Positions 1,216 to 29,586 of a stretch of 29,586 bases of DNA are shown here, in pieces. Position 1 is the first letter of the stretch. Each line of letters begins with the position of its first letter. Source of the stretch: a virus; IMG/VR virus record IMGVR_UViG_3300032245_000955, positions 1 through 29,586 of that record; one strand, 5' to 3'. The position numbers were made by a program, and so were the translations under genes. A model generated the notes under the pieces. It saw only the letters and a list, made by a program, of their open reading frames with translations. It was not told where the DNA came from and made no database searches.

Positions 1216-3174
1216 CTAGAATGGCTCATTTGTCACCTTTTTGCTGAATAAGCCATCGCTGGCTTCTTCGATTAAACCGTCATCTTTAGCCTGCTTCACG
1301 CGGGCCTTCGCTTGCCGTTCCTGCAACCGGGTGGCCTGTTGTACGAATGTAACAACTTGGGTGTACTTTGCCCCTTCAGGTAGCTTTGCCCAATCGATTG
1401 TGGATGCCCGACGGCCTACTGACTTCTCAGGCGCTCCCACCTCAATCCACGCCATGCCCTTGTCGGCATGCTTTAAGTGAACTAAAGGCTGCGTCTTACT
1501 GGCAATTAAATCGCTCGCAGTTACGCCAGAACGCAAGCCAGACCGCTTTCCGCGCTTGGTCACCTCTAGCTTATATGTGTACGTTCCTTGCTCATCCTGG
1601 CCACAAGGCGACAGCATTAAAACGGCTCTTGCCCAATTCGTCAGTTCGCTAGATCCAAAACCGCTATACGCCTTGTCGTGCCCTTGATAACCGCTGCCGT
1701 CTCGTGTTGGCTTTGGCGTATGGTGCATAAGCATCCAAGCAAATCCGCCAGATAGGGCGAGTGGGTTAAGCAAATTACGCAAAAAGCCACCGGCAGTCTC
1801 TTGGCTCGATAAGTCGCCACCGATAAACGCCAGCAACGGATCTACCCAGGCTAGGTCGGGTTTATGTTTTTCAGCTAGGCGACGCATCCTGTCCACGAAC
1901 CGTTCACCTGTGGACGTGCAGTCACGCACGATCACAATGTTTTGCTTCACCCGATCCAACTCCTCTGCGGTCAAATCCAGCGCCTTTAAGATGCCCTGCA
2001 ACGCCTCTGCCACGTCGCCTTCGTCGTTCTCCGCTTGCACGATTAGCGACTTTAACGGCTTGCCGTGTGGGCTAATGCCAAACAGATCACGGCCGGCCGC
2101 CCAAGTGATTGCGGCCTGTAAGCACAGCACGCTCTTACCAAGGCCACTGCTCCCAACCCACAACGCCGAACCTCCACGGCAGATCCACCGCTTGCCTAGC
2201 AGTTGCGTTATATCGGCATCCTCCTTAAAATTGACCAACTGTTCCCAGCTATAAGGCTCAGGAATATCCCCGTAGATTGTGCGCTCCTGCCATTCCATGT
2301 AAGTCAGCGTAGGTGCGCCACACTCGACTAACTCTTGCTGTAAGCCCGTGGCCGTCCTCATCGCACCTGGCAACCTCGACAACCGTCCTGCGTCCTTGTT
2401 GGCTGGATCGGGCTTACTGTGCTCTAGGTGCTTGTAAATGAAGTCCACCCGTTCAGCGAACTCCTTGGCATTGGCTGCCCGAATCTCAACCCATGCGTGC
2501 AGGCTGCGTGATCCGCTCTTTATGATGGACGACGTAGGCAGGCCACTGCGCTTAATAATCGCCCACTGTTCAGCCATAGTGCTTTCATCAAACTCAATTA
2601 GGCAGTGGCGGTACTTTACGATCGATTCCGCTTTCCGATTCTTTCCGTTGTTAGCGTTGATCGACACATACACGCCAACTGCATCGCCCTGCCACTCCTT
2701 CAGCCCGTCGGCCTTAAATAGCTCCAGCCACTCCTCCCGGCTTCGCGTCTCACCTGCACCGTCCGGCCGCTCGCGGTCGCCGTCCTTAATAGATCGGCAG
2801 ATATTGATCTGATCGCCTACGTCGAAACAAGTCGTCAGGAACTTATCGACTGGCCCGCTCTCCACGCTGATCGGCATCGGCGGCACTGGCAGATCCTCAC
2901 GCACGATCGCACCATTCTGATAGCCATATTTGGCTTTCGGCCTCCACGCCTCCCTGGCTGGCTTGCTGAACGCGGATCTAACCGCACTGACGGCCTCGTT
3001 CTGCGACAGCCCAACCTTGTAGGCCCACTCCTCGGCATTGGTTGTTGCGTCGAACTCCGTCAGCCCTTGGTCGCGCCATTGGCAGGCTAACTTAAAGAGC
3101 TGCGTGTTGCGCTCACCTTCAGCGGCCCCGTTGCGATGGATGGCTTCGATTGCGGGGGGTAGTGGTGCAATCAT
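1216..3174 (-). CDS. Primase-helicase (AEP primase + RepA-like ATPase)
   Basis: A 652-residue replication protein. Residues about 20-75 resemble a PriCT-like helical region. Residues about 165-275 carry archaeo-eukaryotic primase signatures: acidic LIEFDE at 192-197, SGSRSLHAWV at 220-229, and GRLSRLPGAMR at 263-273. Residues about 320-560 are a RepA/KaiC-like hexameric helicase: Walker A GSSGLGKS at 341-348, Walker B LAWVDP at 441-446, and the MLMHHTPK motif at 481-488 typical of RepA-type ATPases. A small C-terminal helical domain follows. The likely role is to prime and unwind phage DNA. The start ATG overlaps the upstream stop (ATGA), and an iteron-like array directly follows the stop. 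This is the strongest replication marker in the window. Confidence 0.9.
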   Translation of the reverse strand: MIAPLPPAIEAIHRNGAAEGERNTQLFKLACQWRDQGLTEFDATTNAEEWAYKVGLSQNEAVSAVRSAFSKPAREAWRPKAKYGYQNGAIVREDLPVPPMPISVESGPVDKFLTTCFDVGDQINICRSIKDGDRERPDGAGETRSREEWLELFKADGLKEWQGDAVGVYVSINANNGKNRKAESIVKYRHCLIEFDESTMAEQWAIIKRSGLPTSSIIKSGSRSLHAWVEIRAANAKEFAERVDFIYKHLEHSKPDPANKDAGRLSRLPGAMRTATGLQQELVECGAPTLTYMEWQERTIYGDIPEPYSWEQLVNFKEDADITQLLGKRWICRGGSALWVGSSGLGKSVLCLQAAITWAAGRDLFGISPHGKPLKSLIVQAENDEGDVAEALQGILKALDLTAEELDRVKQNIVIVRDCTSTGERFVDRMRRLAEKHKPDLAWVDPLLAFIGGDLSSQETAGGFLRNLLNPLALSGGFAWMLMHHTPKPTRDGSGYQGHDKAYSGFGSSELTNWARAVLMLSPCGQDEQGTYTYKLEVTKRGKRSGLRSGVTASDLIASKTQPLVHLKHADKGMAWIEVGAPEKSVGRRASTIDWAKLPEGAKYTQVVTFVQQATRLQERQAKARVKQAKDDGLIEEASDGLFSKKVTNEPF

Positions 3175-3362
3175 TTGCTCTCCTTCGTTTTCTTCTCCTC
3201 GACGGCTTTCGCCTTAAATCCCTCGGCCTGCTTAAGCATTTCCGTGGCCATAAGAACGGCGAGATCCAGCCTGGTACGCACTGCATCGTACTGCTTCTTG
3301 ATCAAATTCTTCTTCGCACGTTCGAGCACGGCGAGATGCCAGGTAAGACGCTTTACGCTCAC
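3171..3362 (-). CDS. Small basic helical protein, GTG start
   Basis: The protein has 63 residues and starts with GTG at 3362, which overlaps the upstream stop in a GTGA. Its stop overlaps the ATG of the primase-helicase (ATGA). The sequence is one long amphipathic, Lys-rich helix (AVLERAKKNLIKKQYD, 11-26; tail KAKAVEEKKTKESK). The longer reading frame that runs on to 3635 only shadows the genes before it, so the short form is preferred. The family is not recognised. Its position suggests translational coupling to replication, perhaps as a small partner of the helicase, but that is inference. Confidence 0.65.
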   Translation of the reverse strand: MSVKRLTWHLAVLERAKKNLIKKQYDAVRTRLDLAVLMATEMLKQAEGFKAKAVEEKKTKESK

Positions 3363-3487
3363 CACTGCCCCATTCCCCAGCGGTGGCGATTGGCGCGGGC
3401 CTCCAGCACACAGTCGGCGTACTGCTCTGGCGTGTACGTACCGATGACGCGGGCGGAGAACATGGCTAGGAGATCGGCTAGGCTCAC
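3359..3487 (-). CDS. Mini-gene of 42 residues, GTG start
   Basis: GTG at 3487 overlaps the stop of the HTH gene (GTGA), and the TGA stop at 3359-3361 overlaps the GTG of the next gene in the same way. The predicted peptide begins MSLADLLAMFSARVIGTYTP and ends HRWGMGQW. It fills exactly the gap between its neighbours in the phase expected for a coupled operon, which is the main support. No domain is recognised. It may be a small DNA-associated or regulatory peptide. Confidence 0.55.
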   Translation of the reverse strand: MSLADLLAMFSARVIGTYTPEQYADCVLEARANRHRWGMGQW

Positions 3488-3765
3488 AGCACCGCCTTCG
3501 GCAGCGGCCCCGCCAGTCTGTAGACGTACTTATTGCGATCGTATTCAAGCGGATAGCCAAAGAAGTCGCGCAGCAGATCAATGTCCCGCTGGATCGTCTT
3601 GTAGCTACATTCGAGCTTAACGCCCAACCTGGCACAGCTCGGCAGCGTCAGATCCCGGCGCAGCATGCCAGCGATCACGCCAAGGCGCCGGAACGTCGGC
3701 CGTGTATCGCCAAGGCCAGCAGCCCGATTTCGTTTAGATGCAAACGTGGCGGCCTTCGTGCTCAC
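3484..3765 (-). CDS. Stand-alone DeoR/YafY-type HTH protein
   Basis: A 93-residue basic protein. Residues about 50-84 (CSYKTIQRDIDLLRDFFGYP, then EYDRNKYVYRL) match the N-terminal winged-helix of DeoR/YafY-type regulators, where the RTIQRDI helix contacts DNA and the aromatic wing follows. The usual WYL effector domain is absent, so this is an isolated DNA-binding module. Residues 1-30 are a basic, probably disordered arm. It starts with GTG at 3765, overlapping the stop of the 3D-domain gene. It probably controls the early operon or a phage promoter. The fold call is good; the target is unknown. Confidence 0.75.
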   Translation of the reverse strand: MSTKAATFASKRNRAAGLGDTRPTFRRLGVIAGMLRRDLTLPSCARLGVKLECSYKTIQRDIDLLRDFFGYPLEYDRNKYVYRLAGPLPKAVL

Positions 3766-6737: not shown

Positions 6738-6895
6738 CTGCCCTCCCTAAAGAATCGACGCACTTGATCGACTACCCACCCAAACACGAGCAGGGCCACA
6801 GTTAGACCGGCGATTCCAGAGCCTACAAACAAAGCCCAGCCGGTGATCAGCATGGATACCTGGGCGAGATCGCGCATGACTTCCCACGAAATCAT
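6734..6895 (-). CDS. 53-residue membrane protein
   Basis: The preferred start is ATG at 6895, which overlaps the upstream stop (ATGA); the frame stays open further upstream but that part covers the neighbouring gene. The peptide has one long or two short membrane helices (MLITGWALFVGSGIAG then LTVALLVFGWVV) and a basic end (RRFFREGR). The positive tail suggests a cytoplasmic C-terminus. The role is unknown; superinfection exclusion is a common job for early small membrane proteins but is not shown here. Confidence 0.6.
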   Translation of the reverse strand: MISWEVMRDLAQVSMLITGWALFVGSGIAGLTVALLVFGWVVDQVRRFFREGR

Positions 6896-7149
6896 TTGCT
6901 GGCCTCGTGCTGGGCGTGCCACATACGGCACACGGCGGGGTTAGGGTGATAAACGAACGCTTCTGGCGTTAAATCGTACCCGCCGCGCGAATTTAAATTT
7001 AGTTGTTGGTAGTGAGCCTTTTTAGGCTCAGTTATTACTGCCGTGTTACCGCTTCGGCGTAAGTCATTGTAGGGATAAGCATCGGACGGGGTGGGATTTG
7101 AACCCACGGTTCTATCTCCTTCTTTGATTTGATTGATTATGCTTTGCAT
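6892..7149 (-). CDS. Hypothetical protein whose gene spans attP
   Basis: An open frame of up to 85 residues, start ATG at 7149. Codons for RTVGSNPTPSD (13-23) are the tRNA-like attP core read in this frame. The C-terminal half (GGYDLTPEAFVYHPNPAVCR) looks protein-like and its stop overlaps the next gene in an ATGA, so translation through this end is likely. The true start is uncertain: no ribosome binding site is visible before 7149. If the phage integrates at this core, the first codons would be separated from the rest, so the gene would be altered in the lysogen. Confidence 0.45.
   Translation of the reverse strand: MQSIINQIKEGDRTVGSNPTPSDAYPYNDLRRSGNTAVITEPKKAHYQQLNLNSRGGYDLTPEAFVYHPNPAVCRMWHAQHEASK
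7013..7030. repeat. Perfect hairpin TGAGCCT-TTTT-AGGCTCA
   Basis: A 7-bp perfect stem with a 4-base loop within the early frame at 6892-7149, about 50 bases from the attP core on the early-operon side. It could be a structured element in the leader of the early operon. There is no following T-run, so a terminator is unlikely. Confidence 0.4.
7083..7107 (-). other. attP: Probable attP core (tRNA-Ser 3' end)
   Basis: Read on the minus strand, this is a complete T-arm (GTGGG-TTCAAAT-CCCAC) followed by the seven-base acceptor 3' strand CCCGTCC and discriminator G. No D-arm or anticodon arm lies upstream, so it is a tRNA 3' fragment, not a gene. The G discriminator and the GGACGGG acceptor partner fit tRNA-Ser. 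It lies 87 bases from the integrase start. Tyrosine integrases commonly use such tRNA 3' ends as attP cores, which restore the host tRNA on integration. Confidence 0.8.
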
Positions 7150-7193
7150 GGTTGCTGTGTTTTGTTGCGTTAAACTGAGTAAATGTTACCGTT

Positions 7194-8300
7194 ATGACCA
7201 TGGCGTATTCTTACCAGAAACGCGGCAGCCCTTGGTTCTTTATTCGTTTTAAAGACCCGACTGGAAAATGGCGTAGCAAAAGCACCCGCTACCGAATCGA
7301 CAACACCCTGCATCGAGCTAAGGCAACGGCCGAGGCCGCTCGACTTGGCGTTAATGAAAAGCAAAAAGATTGCGGCCACGATTGGGTTGACGATTTGATT
7401 GAAAATCACCCTGTTTCTGCTCTGACAAAAGTGTATTACAGGAATTGCTGGCGTCATCTTGCGCGATTTATTATCGAAAAGAAAATAACCCTGCAAGCGT
7501 TTTCTGCGGCTGATTGTGAAATTTATTTGAGATGGCGTCAAAGCCTTCCCCGCACGTCCGGCGGTAAAGCTGGTCGTAACCAAGCGTGCCAAGATTTGAA
7601 GATTCTTAAATGGATTCACAGGCAGGGCCGACTGCTGGGCAAGATGGATTCTGTCGCTCTTCTGGATTACCGAATTAAGAGGGGGCCGATCTCCCGCGTT
7701 AAACCCGTTTTTTCGGATAATGAGATTAAAATCACCCGGAAAGCCTTGGCCGTGGAAGGTGTGCCCGAATGGATGCGGATTAGCTTTGAGATCGCGTTGG
7801 CTACGGGCTGTCGCCTGCGTGAGACGCAGATCCCGCTCGACTGCGTGGATTTGAAGAATCGCATCCTTACGTTCCCCTGCCCCAAGGGTGGCACGGGCAA
7901 ATCCTTCAGCATCCCCATCCCGGCCGCCATCGAACCCATGCTGGCCAGAATGAAGGCCGAGGGTCGCAAGGTCACTTGCGAAGTCCCCCGGACTCGAGCT
8001 TCGCTTTGCTGGCGTCGCCTGCTCGATATTTGCGGGCTTAAACGTCATTGTTTTCATTCGCTTCGGGTAACCCGAGTGACGAGATTGCGGCTTTCAGGCT
8101 GTTCTCAATCTGTCGCCATGAGACTCGTGAATCACTCGTCGACTTTAGTGCACGAGTTGTATCAGCGGCACTGCGTAGACGATCTCCGCGATGCAGTGAA
8201 CTTAGGCCAGTCGTCCGTATCAGCCGCCAGCGATCAAAGTCAGACGGAATTACCTTACCCGCAATCAGCGGGAATCCAGGCATCGCCTGCATTTGCTTGA
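7194..8300 (+). CDS. int: Tyrosine recombinase, phage integrase
   Basis: A 368-residue integrase. Residues 4-35 (YSYQKRGSPWFFIRFKDPTG) form the N-terminal arm-binding domain and about 62-145 the SAM-like core-binding domain. The catalytic residues are all visible: Arg207 (ATGCRLRE), a Lys in the KGGTGK hairpin (231-236), His288/Arg291 (HSLR), His314 (VNHSS) and nucleophile Tyr323 (ELYQRH). It catalyses integration and, with an excisionase, excision. It is the only long plus-strand gene here; the start is ATG at 7194 or, equally possible, ATG at 7200. The C-terminal 45 residues past Tyr323 are unusual, and the last 263 bases overlap an excisionase-like gene in antisense. Confidence 0.93.
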   Translation: MTMAYSYQKRGSPWFFIRFKDPTGKWRSKSTRYRIDNTLHRAKATAEAARLGVNEKQKDCGHDWVDDLIENHPVSALTKVYYRNCWRHLARFIIEKKITLQAFSAADCEIYLRWRQSLPRTSGGKAGRNQACQDLKILKWIHRQGRLLGKMDSVALLDYRIKRGPISRVKPVFSDNEIKITRKALAVEGVPEWMRISFEIALATGCRLRETQIPLDCVDLKNRILTFPCPKGGTGKSFSIPIPAAIEPMLARMKAEGRKVTCEVPRTRASLCWRRLLDICGLKRHCFHSLRVTRVTRLRLSGCSQSVAMRLVNHSSTLVHELYQRHCVDDLRDAVNLGQSSVSAASDQSQTELPYPQSAGIQASPAFA

Positions 8301-8406
8301 TTCGGGTGTAGCCCAAGCCGTAAGCAGCGCCTAGTTGGCGAAGGGAAAGAGCTTGGTTCTTCTGGCGGAGTTTCATGGCAACAACGTTGAGACGCCCCAA
8401 GCTCAT
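8038..8406 (-). CDS. Excisionase-like HTH protein
   Basis: Up to 122 residues. Residues 20-61 (SLRQLGAAYGLGYTRIKQMQ, then GFPLIAGKVIPSDFDRW) form a MerR/Xis-like winged HTH: helix-turn-helix, then a G-K-V wing and a short helix. Such proteins bend DNA at att sites to direct excision. It starts six bases after the stop of the minus-strand RHH gene, so they share an operon. The C-terminal half lies antisense to the catalytic end of the integrase, including its Tyr323 codon, and may be less conserved. Convergent overlap of this length is unusual. An alternative start is ATG at 8376. Confidence 0.65.
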   Translation of the reverse strand: MSLGRLNVVAMKLRQKNQALSLRQLGAAYGLGYTRIKQMQAMPGFPLIAGKVIPSDFDRWRLIRTTGLSSLHRGDRLRSAADTTRALKSTSDSRVSWRQIENSLKAAISSLGLPEANENNDV

Positions 8407-8412
8407 AAGTAT

Positions 8413-8574
8413 CTAGCTTTGCTCTCCCGATGCTTTTGCAAGCAGTTGAGTGATGAGCTGAGAAAGCGAAATACGACGGGCAGCAGCCAGTTTTTGCGAT
8501 GCTTTTTTCACAGCAACGGGCAATACAATATTTGTCTTTTCTGCTTTTAAACCGCTGAGTGGACGACGAGGCAT
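8413..8574 (-). CDS. Ribbon-helix-helix protein, 53 residues
   Basis: ATG at 8574, stop TAG at 8413-8415. The peptide has the RHH layout: a short beta strand (KTNIVLPVAVKKA, 13-25) for DNA contact, a first helix (SQKLAAARR) and a second (SLSQLITQLLAKA, 36-48) after the turn. This is the CopG/Arc fold, which binds DNA as dimers. AAAGG lies just before the ATG. It is divergent from a second RHH gene, with TACGC half-sites between them, so mutual repression or autorepression is likely. It heads a short operon with the excisionase-like gene. Confidence 0.72.
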   Translation of the reverse strand: MPRRPLSGLKAEKTNIVLPVAVKKASQKLAAARRISLSQLITQLLAKASGEQS

Positions 8575-8668
8575 ACGCCTTTGCTACGCACACACGGCGT
8601 ATTAGCAACACTTTTCTTTTGGGCATTAACTTTTCTTTTTTAAACTTGAATGCGTATTTATTACGCAT
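8574..8668. promoter_or_regulatory. Shared operator region of the two RHH genes
   Basis: Five TACGC half-sites occur between the divergent starts: 8574-8578, 8585-8589, 8597-8601 (inverted), 8652-8656 (inverted) and 8662-8666. The outer pair near the plus gene is a perfect 7-bp inverted repeat, ATGCGTA-TTTAT-TACGCAT (8650-8668). Short, repeated half-sites are what RHH dimers bind, so these are likely operators. Confidence 0.6.
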
Positions 8669-8673
8669 ACAAT
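8646..8673 (+). promoter_or_regulatory. Candidate promoter, TTGAAT-16-TACAAT
   Basis: A -35-like TTGAAT (8646-8651) and a -10-like TACAAT (8668-8673) are 16 bases apart, and the inverted repeat at 8650-8668 fills the spacer, so a bound repressor would block polymerase. The ATG at 8681 is about seven bases past the -10 box, so the transcript would be almost or fully leaderless; CCTCCCT before the ATG is not a ribosome binding site. Confidence 0.5.
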
Positions 8674-8680
8674 CCTCCCT

Positions 8681-8824
8681 ATGAAAAAGGCGAAAACAAA
8701 CCTCACGATCGACCCAAAAGTTAAGCGTAACGGTGAGCGTCTTGCCAAAAAAAGTGGATTATCCCTTTCGGCATATATCACCACGCTGCTAGTCAAAGAG
8801 CTGGCCAAAGAAAATAAACGCTAA
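8681..8824 (+). CDS. Ribbon-helix-helix protein, 47 residues
   Basis: ATG at 8681, TAA at 8822-8824. It reads MKKAKTNLTIDPKVKRNGER and then GLSLSAYITTLLVKELAKE, a classic CopG/Arc layout: strand TNLTIDP, helix one (VKRNGERLAKKSG), helix two (SLSAYITTLLVKEL). It shares no strong identity with the divergent RHH gene but the same fold. The start is inferred from the fold, since the upstream sequence has no ribosome binding site and a candidate promoter ends only seven bases away. It is the only plus-strand gene besides the integrase, and the pair may form the lysis-lysogeny switch. It ends four bases into the convergent winged-helix gene. Confidence 0.75.
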   Translation: MKKAKTNLTIDPKVKRNGERLAKKSGLSLSAYITTLLVKELAKENKR

Positions 8825-9120
8825 GATTTAGGCGATTTGCCTTGAATAAGGCGGTAGTGGGGTATTTTCCTGCAATGGCCTAGAAACTTTTTCCCCTTTG
8901 AATCAACGTGAGGCAATCGAACCACATAACTTTTTTTCTCGGCTCTACCGTCTTTAACCAAATGAGCTAAAAGCTTGTTGGCGTAATTTGCCGACTTCCC
9001 CCAAAGCTCGGCGATCTGGTTTTTAGTTAACCACCCATCGGGAACTACCTCTTGCCGATACCCAGCGACATACTCCGTTAGGACGGATGCCCAATCCGAC
9101 TTTACACCGGGTATCGCCAT
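8821..9120 (-). CDS. Winged-helix DNA-binding protein
   Basis: The preferred start is ATG at 9120, giving 99 residues; the frame extends further upstream only over the phosphoesterase gene. Residues 30-60 (WLTKNQIAELWGKSANYANK, then LVKDGRAEKK) form a winged helix like MarR or replication-regulator HTHs. The basic end (CRKIPHYRLIQGKSPKS) probably binds DNA. It overlaps the phosphoesterase stop by 19 bases and is the last gene of the long leftward operon that begins with the capsid. It converges with the plus-strand RHH gene. It could be a late regulator; the target is unknown. Confidence 0.65.
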   Translation of the reverse strand: MAIPGVKSDWASVLTEYVAGYRQEVVPDGWLTKNQIAELWGKSANYANKLLAHLVKDGRAEKKSYVVRLPHVDSKGKKFLGHCRKIPHYRLIQGKSPKS

Positions 9121-9848
9121 ACGCCTCCTATGGGTGAAACTACGTTCACCGTGCATCCCTGCCCGCCTTCTACGTATTCGCCCCAGGCAACGCCATGCTG
9201 CCATCTGGTAACAGATCGCTGACGCCGGGCGTAGTGCATGCTGGGAATGTCTGCTAGGCAACCGATCGACCAGCCCACGGGTGCCCCGATGCTGCGGCCT
9301 GCCGTGCGATCTATCCGATGCAAGTGCCCCATAACTACGGGTTTCCCAAGCATCTCAACGTGATCTCTGACGGCGCTGGATTCTGAATACATAAAACCGT
9401 GGCCGAATGTCGTGCCTCCTAGAATGCGCCAGCCTTTCTCAATGTCGTAAGGCACATACTGCGCCTTTAAATCCTTGCACATGTTGTAAATCTCCGATTT
9501 CGCAGACGTGCAGCAGTGCGCCACGATTGCGCTAGGCGAGTATTGTAAAGCTGTGAGGCGGTGCTCATGGTTTCCCTCAAAGATGTAGCGTGGCGCAAGT
9601 TCTCGAACGAAATTAAGCCCAGCGTCAAAGTCCTCGCGGATAGATGCGGTGCGTTCGGGCGAGTCTGGATCTTTCCTCGCGCTACCCATTAACCCGGACA
9701 GATCCACGAAATCCCCTAAGTGCAGCGTCATATCTGGCTGCCACCGGCGCTTCATTTCAATAGCGGCCTTGCAAGCGGCCGCGTTCGCTAGGTGTCCGTG
9801 GCTACAGCTAACGGCCAGCCATCGTTTCCACTTGCGAATGACCTTCAT
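9102..9848 (-). CDS. Calcineurin-like metallophosphoesterase
   Basis: A 248-residue phosphoesterase. Metal-binding motifs in order: CSHGH (15-19) at the place of the usual DxH, LGDFVD (44-49, Asp46), EGNHEHR (91-97, Asn93/His94), FGHGF (148-152, His150) and VVMGHLHR (171-178, His175 and His177). These define the calcineurin-like fold, which hydrolyses phosphodiesters or phosphomonoesters using two metals. The Asp of the first motif is replaced by Cys15, which could alter metal use. Phage members may act on nucleotides, RNA or DNA ends. It is coupled to the MazG-like gene by an ATGA overlap. Confidence 0.85.
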   Translation of the reverse strand: MKVIRKWKRWLAVSCSHGHLANAAACKAAIEMKRRWQPDMTLHLGDFVDLSGLMGSARKDPDSPERTASIREDFDAGLNFVRELAPRYIFEGNHEHRLTALQYSPSAIVAHCCTSAKSEIYNMCKDLKAQYVPYDIEKGWRILGGTTFGHGFMYSESSAVRDHVEMLGKPVVMGHLHRIDRTAGRSIGAPVGWSIGCLADIPSMHYARRQRSVTRWQHGVAWGEYVEGGQGCTVNVVSPIGGVWRYPV

Positions 9849-10171
9849 TTCTTATCAGCCGCTGAAGGGAATCCTTCCAGCACGGCTAGAATCTGACGGC
9901 AACTTTCCCGCGATTGAGCTGCCACGACGCTCTCGTCGCTCGCCCCGATCAGCGCAATCTCCGCGATTACGGAGAGCTGCATCTTTAACGTATGATGATA
10001 GGTGCATAGATCCAATATCTCATCCCACGCATCCTTCCACACGGGCCTGCGCCATAACGCACCGCCGTGTTCTTCTTGGCCTTTGCGGTACTTGGCATCC
10101 AGATCCTTGGTTAAATCACGCAGAATGCCCGCCAGATGCTTCTCATGTTCCGGCGTCACCGTGAACTCCAC
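9845..10171 (-). CDS. MazG-like nucleotide pyrophosphohydrolase
   Basis: The protein has 108 residues. KYRKGQEEHGGALWRRP (28-43) followed by WDEILDLCTYHH (49-60) is the helical acidic signature (EExxE...ExxD) of all-alpha MazG-type NTP pyrophosphohydrolases, as found in many phages. Glu33/Glu34 with Glu51/Asp54 would bind Mg. Such enzymes hydrolyse (d)NTPs to monophosphates, clearing unwanted nucleotides or lowering host alarmone signals. It overlaps the endolysin gene by 16 bases. The match is by motif only; the substrate is unknown. Confidence 0.7.
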   Translation of the reverse strand: MEFTVTPEHEKHLAGILRDLTKDLDAKYRKGQEEHGGALWRRPVWKDAWDEILDLCTYHHTLKMQLSVIAEIALIGASDESVVAAQSRESCRQILAVLEGFPSAADKK

Positions 10172-25321: not shown

Positions 25322-25876
25322 TTATGTCAAAACTTTCAGCCAGCAATTCTGCTGAAAATCAACAGAGTTAAACGCTTCTGCCACGGCTCGATCTACCCCT
25401 GGCCACCCGCACATGTAATCGTGCCCGGCAATTACCCCGCCTTTTTTTACCTTGGGCAGCCAAGCAGCAATATCCGCTTTTACGTTCTCGTAGTCGTGAG
25501 CGGCGTCAATAAAAACGGAATCCAAGCATTGATCGGGAAAGAAGTTGGCGCCCTTTAGGCTCGTCATACGCAACGGAACAAGCTGGCGGGAGACTGGCTT
25601 TACGTTTGCCAGAAACTCCTCGTAGAGCGTGCCGTTCTTGATGCATTCCTCGCCTGCGTGTTCCTCGCTACCTAGCCAAGTGTCGACAGCGTAGATCTCG
25701 ATTCGGGGCGATTTGTTCCAAGCCTCAACCAGTAGAAACGCAGTAGACTTCCCTTTCCAGCTTCCCACCTCCACGATCTTTCCATCCATCGAACAATCGG
25801 CCACTAGGCGCCGGTAAAGATCGGGGCAGCTAAACCAGTCCTCCCCGCCAATGCTTAGGTGTTGTAGTTTTTCCAC
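25322..25876 (-). CDS. Class I SAM-dependent methyltransferase
   Basis: The preferred start is GTG at 25876, preceded by AAGGAAAC, giving 184 residues; an upstream ATG would only add residues over the neighbouring gene. Motif I is EVGSWKGKS (36-44), the acidic motif II IYAVDTW (61-67), and IDAAHDYE (123-130) with GGVIAGHD (146-153) matches the Methyltransf_24 group of sugar or small-molecule methyltransferases. Next to two glycosyltransferases it probably methylates a sugar. It overlaps the glycosyltransferase gene by 22 bases. Confidence 0.82.
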   Translation of the reverse strand: MEKLQHLSIGGEDWFSCPDLYRRLVADCSMDGKIVEVGSWKGKSTAFLLVEAWNKSPRIEIYAVDTWLGSEEHAGEECIKNGTLYEEFLANVKPVSRQLVPLRMTSLKGANFFPDQCLDSVFIDAAHDYENVKADIAAWLPKVKKGGVIAGHDYMCGWPGVDRAVAEAFNSVDFQQNCWLKVLT

Positions 25877-26529
25877 TTTGTTTCCTTGGCCGTAGCCACG
25901 CGGGTGGCGTGTTGATGTTCCTTGTGAAATTCCGGCCCTGGACAAAAAGTGCCGCCTTCTGCCCCGATGTTTTGTATCCGACTGACGTGCGGGAATAGTT
26001 CGCCCATACCCGTCTGTTCACGCACACGTTGAACCGATCCGTCCCAGAAGTTGCAATCCCAGGCGGGAACCAGATGTCTTTCAAATCGATCGCGCCAGGT
26101 TGCCCAGCCCCAAGGCGTGAACCAGTTTCTGAATCCGCTGGCGTCGTTCTCCGCATCGCCGCCGTGTTGATTGTAGCCGGATACCGTTAGCACTTTTGGG
26201 CCAGCGTTCTGCCCTGCCCACTCAAACCAACGCAAGCAGTCCGGGCTGGGAACGGTGTCGTCCTCCAAGTGAATGTGATAATCCGAGATTCTGAATCCCA
26301 GCTCCATGCAGTAGCGAATCATCGATCCGCAGCCCAACCGTTCCTCCATAATCATTGTCTGGATACCGGCTGCCTTGGCCATCTCTGCCAGCTCCTGCGT
26401 TTTGTCGGATGGATCTAGCACAGCCACCACGTCGTACTCACCCACGCCGTCACACCACGCCAACGCCTTTAACACCTGGGCAAAGTATGTGGGCCGATTG
26501 TAGCCCGATATGGTGAGCGTCTTATCCAT
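25855..26529 (-). CDS. GT-A glycosyltransferase
   Basis: A 224-residue glycosyltransferase. The start LTISGYNRPTYFAQVLKAL (5-23) is the nucleotide-sugar-binding beginning of GT-A folds, and HLEDDTVPSPDCLRWFEW (87-104) holds the DxD-like metal motif EDD at 89-91 in the style of GnT-I-like enzymes. WFTPWGWATWRDRF is a conserved acceptor-side block. It probably adds a sugar to a virion protein or to host surface glycans. It overlaps the two-domain glycosyltransferase gene by eight bases. Confidence 0.83.
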   Translation of the reverse strand: MDKTLTISGYNRPTYFAQVLKALAWCDGVGEYDVVAVLDPSDKTQELAEMAKAAGIQTMIMEERLGCGSMIRYCMELGFRISDYHIHLEDDTVPSPDCLRWFEWAGQNAGPKVLTVSGYNQHGGDAENDASGFRNWFTPWGWATWRDRFERHLVPAWDCNFWDGSVQRVREQTGMGELFPHVSRIQNIGAEGGTFCPGPEFHKEHQHATRVATAKETKWKNYNT

Positions 26530-28669
26530 TTGCCTTTAGTAAGGCGTAGGCCGCCAGATTGCCGCCCGTGCCTTTATTGTTTTGCAAGGCGTCAGCGCCC
26601 AATCCTTCCGGCCGAATCTTTAAACAGTTGCCACGATTCAGTTCTGGCGTGTTGCAGACGAGCGTAGCTGTCCCAGCCTTCCGCAGTTCAGTGCTCATCA
26701 TGTAATCGTCAGCAAGGAACTTGGCGCGAGCTACGGGACTCAAGCTGGCGAACTCGCTGGCCGGGATGGCTGGCCATAGCTCGGCCTTCGGCATGTCCGA
26801 ACGCCGACACATCACACCGCCGAATCCTTCCAGAATCTCGGCATGGCCACCGTGATCTGGGGCGATGGCGTAGCCAGTGGCGCCTGTCATAAAAAATCCG
26901 CAGACGCCTAACGCCGTTTTTGGTCTGGTATCTAATTCTTCGGCGAGGGTCTGCAAAAGCAGTGGGCTGTAAAGGATGTCGTCATCCAACCAGCAAATCT
27001 TGTCGTCGGGATCCCCGCCTACTTCTAGCGGGCCGATAAACTTTGTCGCCGGGCCGTAATCCTTTGTGCGGTGAATATGCAATTTACCAGCTTCCGCTAA
27101 AGCCAGTATCTCTTTCGGAATATCCCCAAAGCGTTCGCCTGTTCGTGCGAGCTTCTCAGGAACGGACAGAATGATCTGATCCGCCGGGCGAGATTGCGCC
27201 AGTAGGCTCTGGATCGTGGGCATGATCTTGCCGATCCTAGTCGGCGTAGTGGTGAGGCCGACGATAACGTTGCCTGCTCGATCGATTGGATCCGGCAGGC
27301 GAGTCGTCCCGGCTGGCAGTGTGCCCTGTGCGAGAAGATCCATATCCCAGCGCAAGCTAGGCACGACAACTTCTTTTCCGCATTTTACGTGAAGCAATAT
27401 CCTGCCGAGGGTTTTACTGATCGCATCCTCAACGCTCGTGCAAATGTTCAACCGCTTGGCAAACTTATCTTCGCCAGGGTTTGTGATGAATAAATGCTGC
27501 AACCCAGCGGGCTGATCGGATGTATCCATCATCAGCTTTGATGCCCGCACTACGTCTGGCAGTTCGCCCTGGTAAATAATAGTGATCTGCCCCCAGGCTG
27601 CGCGGAATGCTTCTTTGAGGCATCGATCTGCGTCGGCGGTTTGGCCTACTACCCGCAGGGATTGTTCCAGCAAGAAGTTCGGCATGTGGCCGTACCACTT
27701 GGCATCCAGATTCCAGATGACTCCGGCAGGCGGCGTGAGGGTCATAATCATTTGAAGCAGTCGCACTGCCTCGTGATAATTGCCATCGTCCATCAGTTGC
27801 GTTGCGTAGTGGCCGTAAGCCTCGCGTCGTGTGGGTTGAATCATTACTGCCTCGCCCAGATATTTTCTGCGTTTGGCAGGATCTGCACACATCACGCCCG
27901 CCATGCACAGGAGCTGGTAGCGTTCCGTGATGCCTAGATCTGGATGCTCCAAGGCGAGCAGCACTGGCCCGATGGCTGTCTGGTAATCGTTCCGCAGAAA
28001 CGACTCCATGCCGATGTAGTACCAGTTCATCCCGGCGCCCTCTAAAACGCTGTTTAGGATTCGCTTGTTGCGATCGCTAGAGTTCTTTTTGCAGTTGTTA
28101 GGTGCGTGGACGATGACGAGGCCGTCGGCTAGTCCGACTTCCGTATTTGGGATTGGTTTAACTCGTTCGTGGATTGCCCGTTCCCAGATGGCTGGCAGGA
28201 ACCCATCGGCCTGCCGGCGGAAGATCCGTTCTCGGCGATTGTGGCGCATGCCGCTGTTTTGCACATCGTACCGGGTGACTAGGATGTCCCAGCCTTTGTC
28301 GGCCTTTTCTCGTTCCTCAATAACGTGCCGGTGGATTTTAGCCTGGTCGCCATCAAACAAGTCATCGCAATCTGCCCAGATGACGTATTTACCTTTTGCC
28401 AGGTTAAACGCCTGATTCCTAGCAGCTGCGAAATTATCTATATGGGGCCAGTCCTTGTGCTCTGGGCTGTTCTGGTATTCCCCCCAGACTAAAGCCTCGC
28501 CAGCGGCCTCCTGGGCGCAAATACGCACACTGTGCGCCTCATTTTTACCTACTGCCGCCACGACGACGACCTCGTCCCATAGGCCACGGGCGGATTGAAT
28601 AAGGCGTTTAAGAATGTCGCCCTCGGCGGGGCCGACGATTAAAGCAAGAGACACTAGGGGGTTATTCAT
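26522..28669 (-). CDS. Two-domain glycosyltransferase with TPR-like middle
   Basis: The preferred start is ATG at 28669 (715 residues, MNNPLVSLALIV); sequence further upstream covers the terminator. Residues 1-190 are a GT2 domain with metal motif ADCDD at 99-103. Residues about 200-400 are helical and TPR-like (NYHEAVRLLQMIMTL and similar). The C-terminal part (467-650, NVIVGLTTTPTRIGKI to CWLDDDI at 559-565) is a second, different GT-A domain. Two catalytic domains in one chain suggest sequential sugar addition. It lies directly after the capsid gene and may decorate capsid or tail. No ribosome binding site is obvious. Confidence 0.82.
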   Translation of the reverse strand: MNNPLVSLALIVGPAEGDILKRLIQSARGLWDEVVVVAAVGKNEAHSVRICAQEAAGEALVWGEYQNSPEHKDWPHIDNFAAARNQAFNLAKGKYVIWADCDDLFDGDQAKIHRHVIEEREKADKGWDILVTRYDVQNSGMRHNRRERIFRRQADGFLPAIWERAIHERVKPIPNTEVGLADGLVIVHAPNNCKKNSSDRNKRILNSVLEGAGMNWYYIGMESFLRNDYQTAIGPVLLALEHPDLGITERYQLLCMAGVMCADPAKRRKYLGEAVMIQPTRREAYGHYATQLMDDGNYHEAVRLLQMIMTLTPPAGVIWNLDAKWYGHMPNFLLEQSLRVVGQTADADRCLKEAFRAAWGQITIIYQGELPDVVRASKLMMDTSDQPAGLQHLFITNPGEDKFAKRLNICTSVEDAISKTLGRILLHVKCGKEVVVPSLRWDMDLLAQGTLPAGTTRLPDPIDRAGNVIVGLTTTPTRIGKIMPTIQSLLAQSRPADQIILSVPEKLARTGERFGDIPKEILALAEAGKLHIHRTKDYGPATKFIGPLEVGGDPDDKICWLDDDILYSPLLLQTLAEELDTRPKTALGVCGFFMTGATGYAIAPDHGGHAEILEGFGGVMCRRSDMPKAELWPAIPASEFASLSPVARAKFLADDYMMSTELRKAGTATLVCNTPELNRGNCLKIRPEGLGADALQNNKGTGGNLAAYALLKANG

Positions 28670-28686
28670 ATTTTTTGAGTGGGAAA

Positions 28687-28716
28687 GCCCGGACGCACCC
28701 CCCGATGCGTCCGGGC
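28687..28716 (-). terminator. Strong hairpin after the capsid gene
   Basis: GCCCGGACGCA (28687-28697) pairs perfectly with TGCGTCCGGGC (28706-28716), an 11-bp stem with an 8-base loop. In minus-strand reading a short TTTCCC follows. It lies between the capsid stop and the glycosyltransferase start, where phages often reduce read-through after the most expressed gene. Confidence 0.72.
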
Positions 28717-28736
28717 AACCCGGATGATTCTGTAAC

Positions 28737-29586
28737 TTACACGATCCGAACGAGCGAACCGGCCGATCCCTTTGCCGCACCGTAGATGAGGCAATAGGTG
28801 CGCTGCACGCTGCCGGTCACGAGCGAGTAGCTCTCGCGAACCTGGAGCGACAGACCGCTCTTGGCTTCCGTCACGTTGGCAACGGTGCCGCTGAACTCAA
28901 CATTAGGAATCTCGGGCAGACGAGCCGCCACGATGATTGCTTCCTGTTGGGCGATGAATCCTTTGGATACCGCAGAGGGCAGCGAAGCGTAGTTAAATAC
29001 GTTTACGCCGTGAATTTCGCCAAGGCTGGCGCCGCCGACGAGGTCGGTGGAGCGCTGGGCATTCGCCACCACTACGGAATCTTTGGAAAGATTGGCGTAG
29101 TTGGTAGGGCTGAGAACGGCGAACCGTCCACCCATAGGTGCCTTTGCGCTGTTGAGTTGAGCCGCGATGTCGACGATGGAACCAAAGGTCACTGCACCGG
29201 CCGCGATGGTTGCGGTCGTGGTGTAGTTGCTGTTGGTTACCAACGCGAGAACGGTATCAACCATGCTCTTTCCGAGAGCGTGGGCCGCTTGCGCTGCAAA
29301 GCGCTCGACCAAGTTGATCGAGGAGCTGGTGCGCTCGTCATCATTCAAAGCGTACGAGACGTGTTTGAAATTTGAGAGGGTCACGGCGACATCCGTCTGA
29401 GTTGCATCGCCAGCCACGTATCCGGCCGTGCTGGAATAATCCGAGGCAGACTGGATCGAGACGGTGTGGGTTATGATCGCGTCACCCTTGCGGGCGGTAG
29501 CGTCCGAGAAATCGGAAACGCCGGAAGCGATCCATGAGTAGTTTTCAACCAGCAATTCGAGAGCACGTTGTGCTACGACTTTGCCG
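28737..29586 (-). CDS. Major capsid protein (5' end outside window)
   Basis: An open frame of 283 codons that runs off the window edge, so the N-terminus is missing; the frame continues as KVVAQRALELLVENY at the edge. It fits an HK97-fold coat, closest in style to P22-coat-like proteins: a SAASDYSST-type E-loop region, a long helix (LVERFAAQAAHALGKSMVDT), a FAVLSPTNYANL strand block typical of the P domain, and the C-terminal strands LSLQVRESYSLVTGS then TYCLIYGAA. It forms the phage head shell. A strong hairpin terminator follows its TAA. Confidence 0.82.
   Translation of the reverse strand, partial: GKVVAQRALELLVENYSWIASGVSDFSDATARKGDAIITHTVSIQSASDYSSTAGYVAGDATQTDVAVTLSNFKHVSYALNDDERTSSSINLVERFAAQAAHALGKSMVDTVLALVTNSNYTTTATIAAGAVTFGSIVDIAAQLNSAKAPMGGRFAVLSPTNYANLSKDSVVVANAQRSTDLVGGASLGEIHGVNVFNYASLPSAVSKGFIAQQEAIIVAARLPEIPNVEFSGTVANVTEAKSGLSLQVRESYSLVTGSVQRTYCLIYGAAKGSAGSLVRIV

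Follow-up and report, generated by a model that had tools for sequence, protein, structure and literature searches.

Small RHH repressors and known lysogeny switches

The nearest named divergent pair of RHH genes is found in the immI region of phage P22, where Arc and Mnt control an antirepressor in a secondary immunity region and a separate HTH protein, C2, is the main repressor; half-sites of the Arc operator are spaced 11 bp. In phage lambda, CI and Cro are opposed repressors with divergent promoters and shared operator boxes, and the cI transcript from PRM is leaderless. CopG of the pMV158 family serves plasmid copy-number control as a single gene with rep and no integrase. In phage SPbeta, the main repressor MrpR is not CI-like, and an Arc-type RHH protein, YosL, has been discussed as opposing it (PMC10516654). 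Our search of the open-access literature found no paper on an RHH-only lysogeny or immunity switch and no description of a lysogeny control system for phages of the host group considered here.

We analyzed a stretch of viral DNA of 29,586 bp (the window), an incomplete virus record that ends inside the capsid gene. Two small divergent genes in it, rhhM and rhhP, probably form a two-repressor lysogeny switch built of RHH proteins in a temperate phage of freshwater Verrucomicrobia, with rhhP in a CI-like and rhhM in a Cro-like role. The locus resembles lambda CI/Cro in its opposed putative repressors, divergent promoters, shared boxes, and pairing of a first early-leftward gene with a repressor whose message is predicted to be leaderless. 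It differs in having RHH rather than HTH proteins, no dimerisation or cleavage domain, and 3+2 box arrays at 11 bp. The RHH fold, the size of about 50 aa (Arc), the divergent RHH pair, and the one-turn operator spacing are shared with P22 immI; here, however, the pair occupies an int-xis position, rhhM is followed by a xis-like gene, and sequence identity is low. The description of the region as Arc/Mnt style, given in the earlier note, is apt for fold and geometry but not for the primary int-xis position or for the gene content, as no antirepressor gene was recognised. As a candidate RHH autorepressor, rhhP is comparable to CopG (45 aa). Unlike SPbeta, in which an RHH protein is proposed to counter the main repressor, the RHH proteins would here be the repressors themselves.

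Two divergent RHH genes beside the integrase

As the earlier note had reported, ORFs of 53 aa (rhhM, 8413-8574, minus strand) and 47 aa (rhhP, 8681-8824, plus strand) diverge from a 106-bp gap (8575-8680). rhhM heads a leftward rhhM-xis transcript, and rhhP is monocistronic in the window, where almost all genes point leftward and only int and rhhP, among the recognised genes, point rightward. Both genes are under purifying selection, with dN/dS values of 0.07 for rhhP and 0.127 for rhhM (43 sequences each), and are therefore real genes.

The assignment of both products to the RHH proteins was borne out by profile and structure comparisons. rhhP matched PHROG 582 'Arc-like repressor' (E 4.9e-5) and scored 17.7 bits against DUF6364 (cut-off 27.3), and rhhM matched RHH_5 below the curated cut-off (E 0.002, 18.1 bits vs 26). 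The Pfam curated cut-off for the RHH superfamily was reached by neither protein, which is a limit of sensitivity for proteins of 47-53 aa and not a sign of a missing structural feature. The AlphaFold models of rhhP (pLDDT 85.6, helices 12-24 and 29-46) and rhhM (pLDDT 74.8, helices 20-32 and 37-48) are Arc/CopG/NikA-like; their top Foldseek matches were nearly all RHH proteins, with none at E 0.001, and Arc structures were the best matches for both. Judged from these models, both proteins appear to have the layout of the RHH (MetJ/Arc/CopG) group, i.e., a short protein with a strand followed by two helices; the N-terminal strand of the fold is absent from both monomer models. Neither protein contains a sensing domain, which counts against a switch.

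Next to the pair lie int (7194-8300, plus strand), which encodes a tyrosine integrase (PHROG 1, E 1.3e-28), and a gene for a small HTH protein of 122 aa (8038-8406, minus strand), whose 3' end overlaps int. The latter had been called excisionase-like, a name that suits its position and a weak MerR/HTH_17-like pattern, but no family was reached at cut-off; we refer to it as xis-like. Its match to PHROG 14114 'head scaffolding' (E 0.005) was taken as chance.

Putative operators and promoters

Five TACGC/GCGTA motifs are present in the intergenic region, at 8574 (+), 8585 (+), 8597 (-), 8652 (-), and 8662 (+), the first of which shares one base with the rhhM start codon. TACGC occurs 70 times in the whole window (56 expected), and five copies in about 110 bp are therefore a strong local cluster. 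The count of the pentamer alone is weak evidence because the motif was picked after the fact: five copies of a freely chosen pentamer were reached in 8 of 2,000 shuffles of the region. It is the conservation of the boxes among relatives, rather than this count, that lifts the cluster above chance. The motifs, previously called half-sites, are real and are better described as pseudo-palindromic boxes at one-turn spacing. These hexamers (TRCGYA and near variants) lie exactly 11 bp apart within each of two arrays. The rhhM-side array comprises TACGCC (8574-8579, with its CG step centred at 8576.5), TACGCA (8585-8590, centre 8587.5), and GGCGTA (8596-8601, centre 8598.5), the last adjoining the presumed -10 of the leftward promoter. 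The rhhP-side array comprises TGCGTA (8651-8656, centre 8653.5) and TACGCA (8662-8667, centre 8664.5).

For comparison, related contigs were collected from IMG/VR by searches with the phosphoesterase gene, rhhM, and an rhhP alignment, which yielded over 80; the comparison set comprised about 60 related viral contigs with approximately 54 distinct intergenic regions. These relatives usually carry three boxes that cover the start of rhhM and a further two that fall within the predicted promoter of rhhP. Across about 54 distinct homologous gaps, 152 steps between neighbouring boxes of an array measure 11 bp; only type C departs from this, with a step of 14 or 7 bp on its rhhM side. The distance separating the two arrays, by contrast, ranges from 35 to 65 bp. 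When type A regions of equal length are compared, identity to the majority is 0.955 at the boxes vs 0.865 elsewhere. A few type B regions have a degraded third box on the rhhM side, and in some relatives the central pentamer of the rhhP-side palindrome is reversed or the second box is flipped, with the spacing kept. The window contains a single strict TRCGYA pair 11 bp apart, against 0.02 expected; it lies at the rhhP promoter, and integrase-less records contain no such pair. The comparison of relatives turns the motifs into putative operators shared by both RHH genes.

The predicted rhhP promoter (8646-8673, plus strand; TTGAAT, 16 bp, TACAAT) is conserved in relatives, although a scan found one such site with 1.1 expected by chance in the scanned region. 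Both rhhP-side boxes sit in the spacer between TTGAAT and TACAAT. The rhhP ATG starts 8 nt past the end of the -10, so that the start codon falls at the expected transcription start and a leaderless message is predicted. The leftward rhhM promoter was read by eye and is weak. A search for a box pair at the start of the early operon found none in types A-C, and control of lytic genes would therefore rest on read-through from the rhhM promoter.

Linkage of the RHH genes to the integrase

To count linkage, we used 60 distinct regions spanning the wHTH gene to an early gene. Of the 52 that have a full int, 51 also have a complete rhhP, which is present in none of the eight others, and int, xis, rhhM, and rhhP occur together in 50 of the 60. 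Among near-complete genomes, compared through the references G008 and G012 (phages of the same structural type), the segment of int, xis, rhhM, and rhhP is the only one present in all 12 int-positive and absent from all six int-less genomes. Four contigs (L008, L009, L010, and L079) have lost the stretch between a point within int, which differs among them, and the stop codon of rhhP. In L266, a fusion joins int to rhhP at about residue 18 of the latter, and the DNA-binding strand of rhhP is therefore gone. All five deletions take away the RHH functions and, with them, most of int. One contig (L065) keeps a full int without RHH genes or xis, which counts against a switch. L052 carries int, xis, and rhhP without rhhM, and its clade shows that the pair is not universal; in this clade, box pairs are present both at the xis promoter and where early gene 1 starts. 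The rhhP frame of this clade enters a poly-G tract without a prior stop (L052, 8987-9190; L269 and L270, from 5001). The tract is about 13-23 G long, contigs L269 and L270 end there, and the C-terminus of rhhP may vary with its length.

Swapped RHH-operator cassettes among relatives

Type C phages (L023, L028, L064, L066, and L073, with L035 alike) have an int 90% or more identical to that of the window and RHH proteins that are about 43-62% identical to those of the window. Both beta-strands differ (TNLT and TNIV are replaced by TNIY and TNLY), and the boxes are TGCGCA-like and 11 bp apart. Mapped onto the int tree, the five type C rows require five changes, and well-supported branches force at least two of these. 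This second type of RHH-operator cassette, with its own beta-strands and matching boxes, turns up repeatedly on the same int backbone, which is suggestive of a swap of immunity type. In addition, the rhhM strand and the rhhM-side boxes are changed in L076 and L081, in which the rhhP side is nearly unchanged; within these few lineages, this hints that rhhM acts chiefly on the array at its own side.

Five of the six type C loci also carry, after rhhP, an ORF of about 160 aa whose start resembles a signal peptide (L028, 9000-9545, minus strand; same place in L023, L035, L066, and L073). It adjoins rhhP downstream, on the strand of rhhP, and is possibly a gene expressed by the prophage.

Attachment site and host

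The attP core (7082-7109, minus strand; CCGTGGGTTCAAATCCCACCCCGTCCGA) equals the 3' end of tRNA-Ser(CGA) and lies within the first gene of the early leftward operon (6892-7149, minus strand). In the genome collection, 11 contigs contain this 28-nt core, in every case at the 3' end of tRNA-Ser(CGA). By title, nearly all of these attB contigs are from Verrucomicrobia, mostly subdivision 6, and to judge by isolate names they are presumably of freshwater origin. The identity of attP and attB indicates a temperate phage. The capsid protein shares 26% identity with that of the Verrucomicrobia phage P8625. A search of genome contigs with an int alignment gave no prophage match, and 62 host-order genomes likewise showed no prophage of this phage group; lysogeny is therefore something that we infer. 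Relatives of int are present in nine of these 62 genomes, with no RHH gene in the short stretches read. Among isolated phages, neither int nor the region 7100-10000 had a match in 50,697 records, and rhhP gave chance-level matches only. Other tRNA 3' ends occupy the place of attP in some relatives (L017, L058, L059, L131, L135, and L052); these are changed integration targets. Besides, in three loci from host-order genomes (L190, L191, and L192), a small convergent HTH-like ORF overlaps the 3' end of int, which is the int/xis layout of the window; there were no RHH genes in the stretch read.

A candidate two-repressor switch and its alternatives

With two putative repressors, divergent promoters, shared boxes, and linkage to int and attP, the locus appears to have the layout of a CI/Cro-type switch. 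Both small RHH proteins would recognise the same kind of operator box, and the two divergent promoters would be repressed by them. rhhP would be the lysogenic repressor, with dimers binding the boxes 11 bp apart and shutting both the leftward rhhM-xis promoter and its own promoter. rhhM would be a Cro-like counter-repressor, whose leftward transcript would run via xis toward the early genes; it is from this transcript order that we infer control of the early operon in types A-C. DNA binding by both proteins, the division of roles, the control of lytic genes, and immunity are all predicted from comparative sequence data. The two-repressor lysogeny switch proposed earlier for this region holds up as the best-supported reading, given the int/xis linkage, the operators, the promoters, the cassette swap, and the lack of any other recognised repressor. 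As to the last point, the earlier note had recognised no XRE repressor in the window, and this now extends to relatives: HTH_3 exceeded its cut-off in 0 of 38 related records (matches below cut-off occur in five) and S24 was found in 0 of 17, i.e., a CI-like HTH repressor with an S24 domain, as in a CI/Cro-type switch, was not found. Counting against this reading, repressor activity is conceivable for genes that int-positive phages share with int-less ones, for instance the wHTH gene at 8821-9120.

Such a gene is central to an alternative that we consider rather unlikely, in which the RHH pair merely times int and xis in integration and excision and immunity comes from an unrecognised gene common to int-less phages, candidates including the wHTH gene, an HTH_11-like ORF (3484-3765), and a 163-aa ORF (575-1066). 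That xis stands directly behind rhhM, that the early operon of types A-C has no box pair, and that HTH-like genes of this sort exist, either shared or variable, all agree with it. However, the candidates are on the lytic strand, and the wHTH and 163-aa genes are kept where attP and int are lost, where a repressor of the phage's own growth would be a burden; the box pairs of the L052 clade also reach an early-gene start.

The divergent pair, its fold, and its 11-bp geometry would equally suit a secondary immunity module like P22 immI, in which an Arc/Mnt-like pair governs an antirepressor and a separate main repressor exists, but there is no antirepressor-like gene beside the pair and no main repressor was recognised in relatives, which makes this very unlikely. 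We regard it as highly improbable that the genes are of plasmid type, serving as antitoxin, in partition (ParG/omega-like), or in copy control (CopG-like). The best PDB and NCBIfam sequence matches, all weak, are CopG (the best PDB match to the rhhP profile, E 0.075), VapB, and RelB/DinJ; against this stand the strict int/xis linkage, the tRNA attachment site, and the lack of a toxin-like, ParA/ParM-like, or rep-like partner beside the pair. An antitoxin identity, suggested by sequence matches to RelB/DinJ and VapB26, was dropped for lack of a toxin, the neighbouring 122-aa HTH-like ORF having no Pfam or NCBIfam toxin match.

Beyond the lysogeny switch itself, a more far-reaching proposal, which we regard as evenly balanced, is that RHH proteins alone, 46-53 aa in length and reaching about 62 aa in type C, make up a complete immunity switch. 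rhhP would then be the sole maintenance repressor, and exchangeable RHH-operator cassettes would define the immunity groups of a widespread Verrucomicrobia phage family. If true, rhhP would rank with the smallest repressors of phage immunity. A pair of repressors of some 50 residues with fixed one-turn boxes would make a very small natural toggle that could easily be rebuilt in E. coli and used to ask how little protein an epigenetic switch needs. Public data contain a natural series of deletions as well as exchanged cassettes, with which the part that carries immunity could readily be tested for. Searching for CI-like repressors alone would label such phages repressor-less.

Other features of the window

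On the minus strand of the window, two ORFs (3171-3635 and 3484-3765) overlap within 3171-3765, the second of which has a weak HTH_11 match (E 3e-5) just under the cut-off. On the same strand, three large ORFs between capsid and tail genes (25322-28780) look, by eye, glycosyltransferase- or methyltransferase-like.
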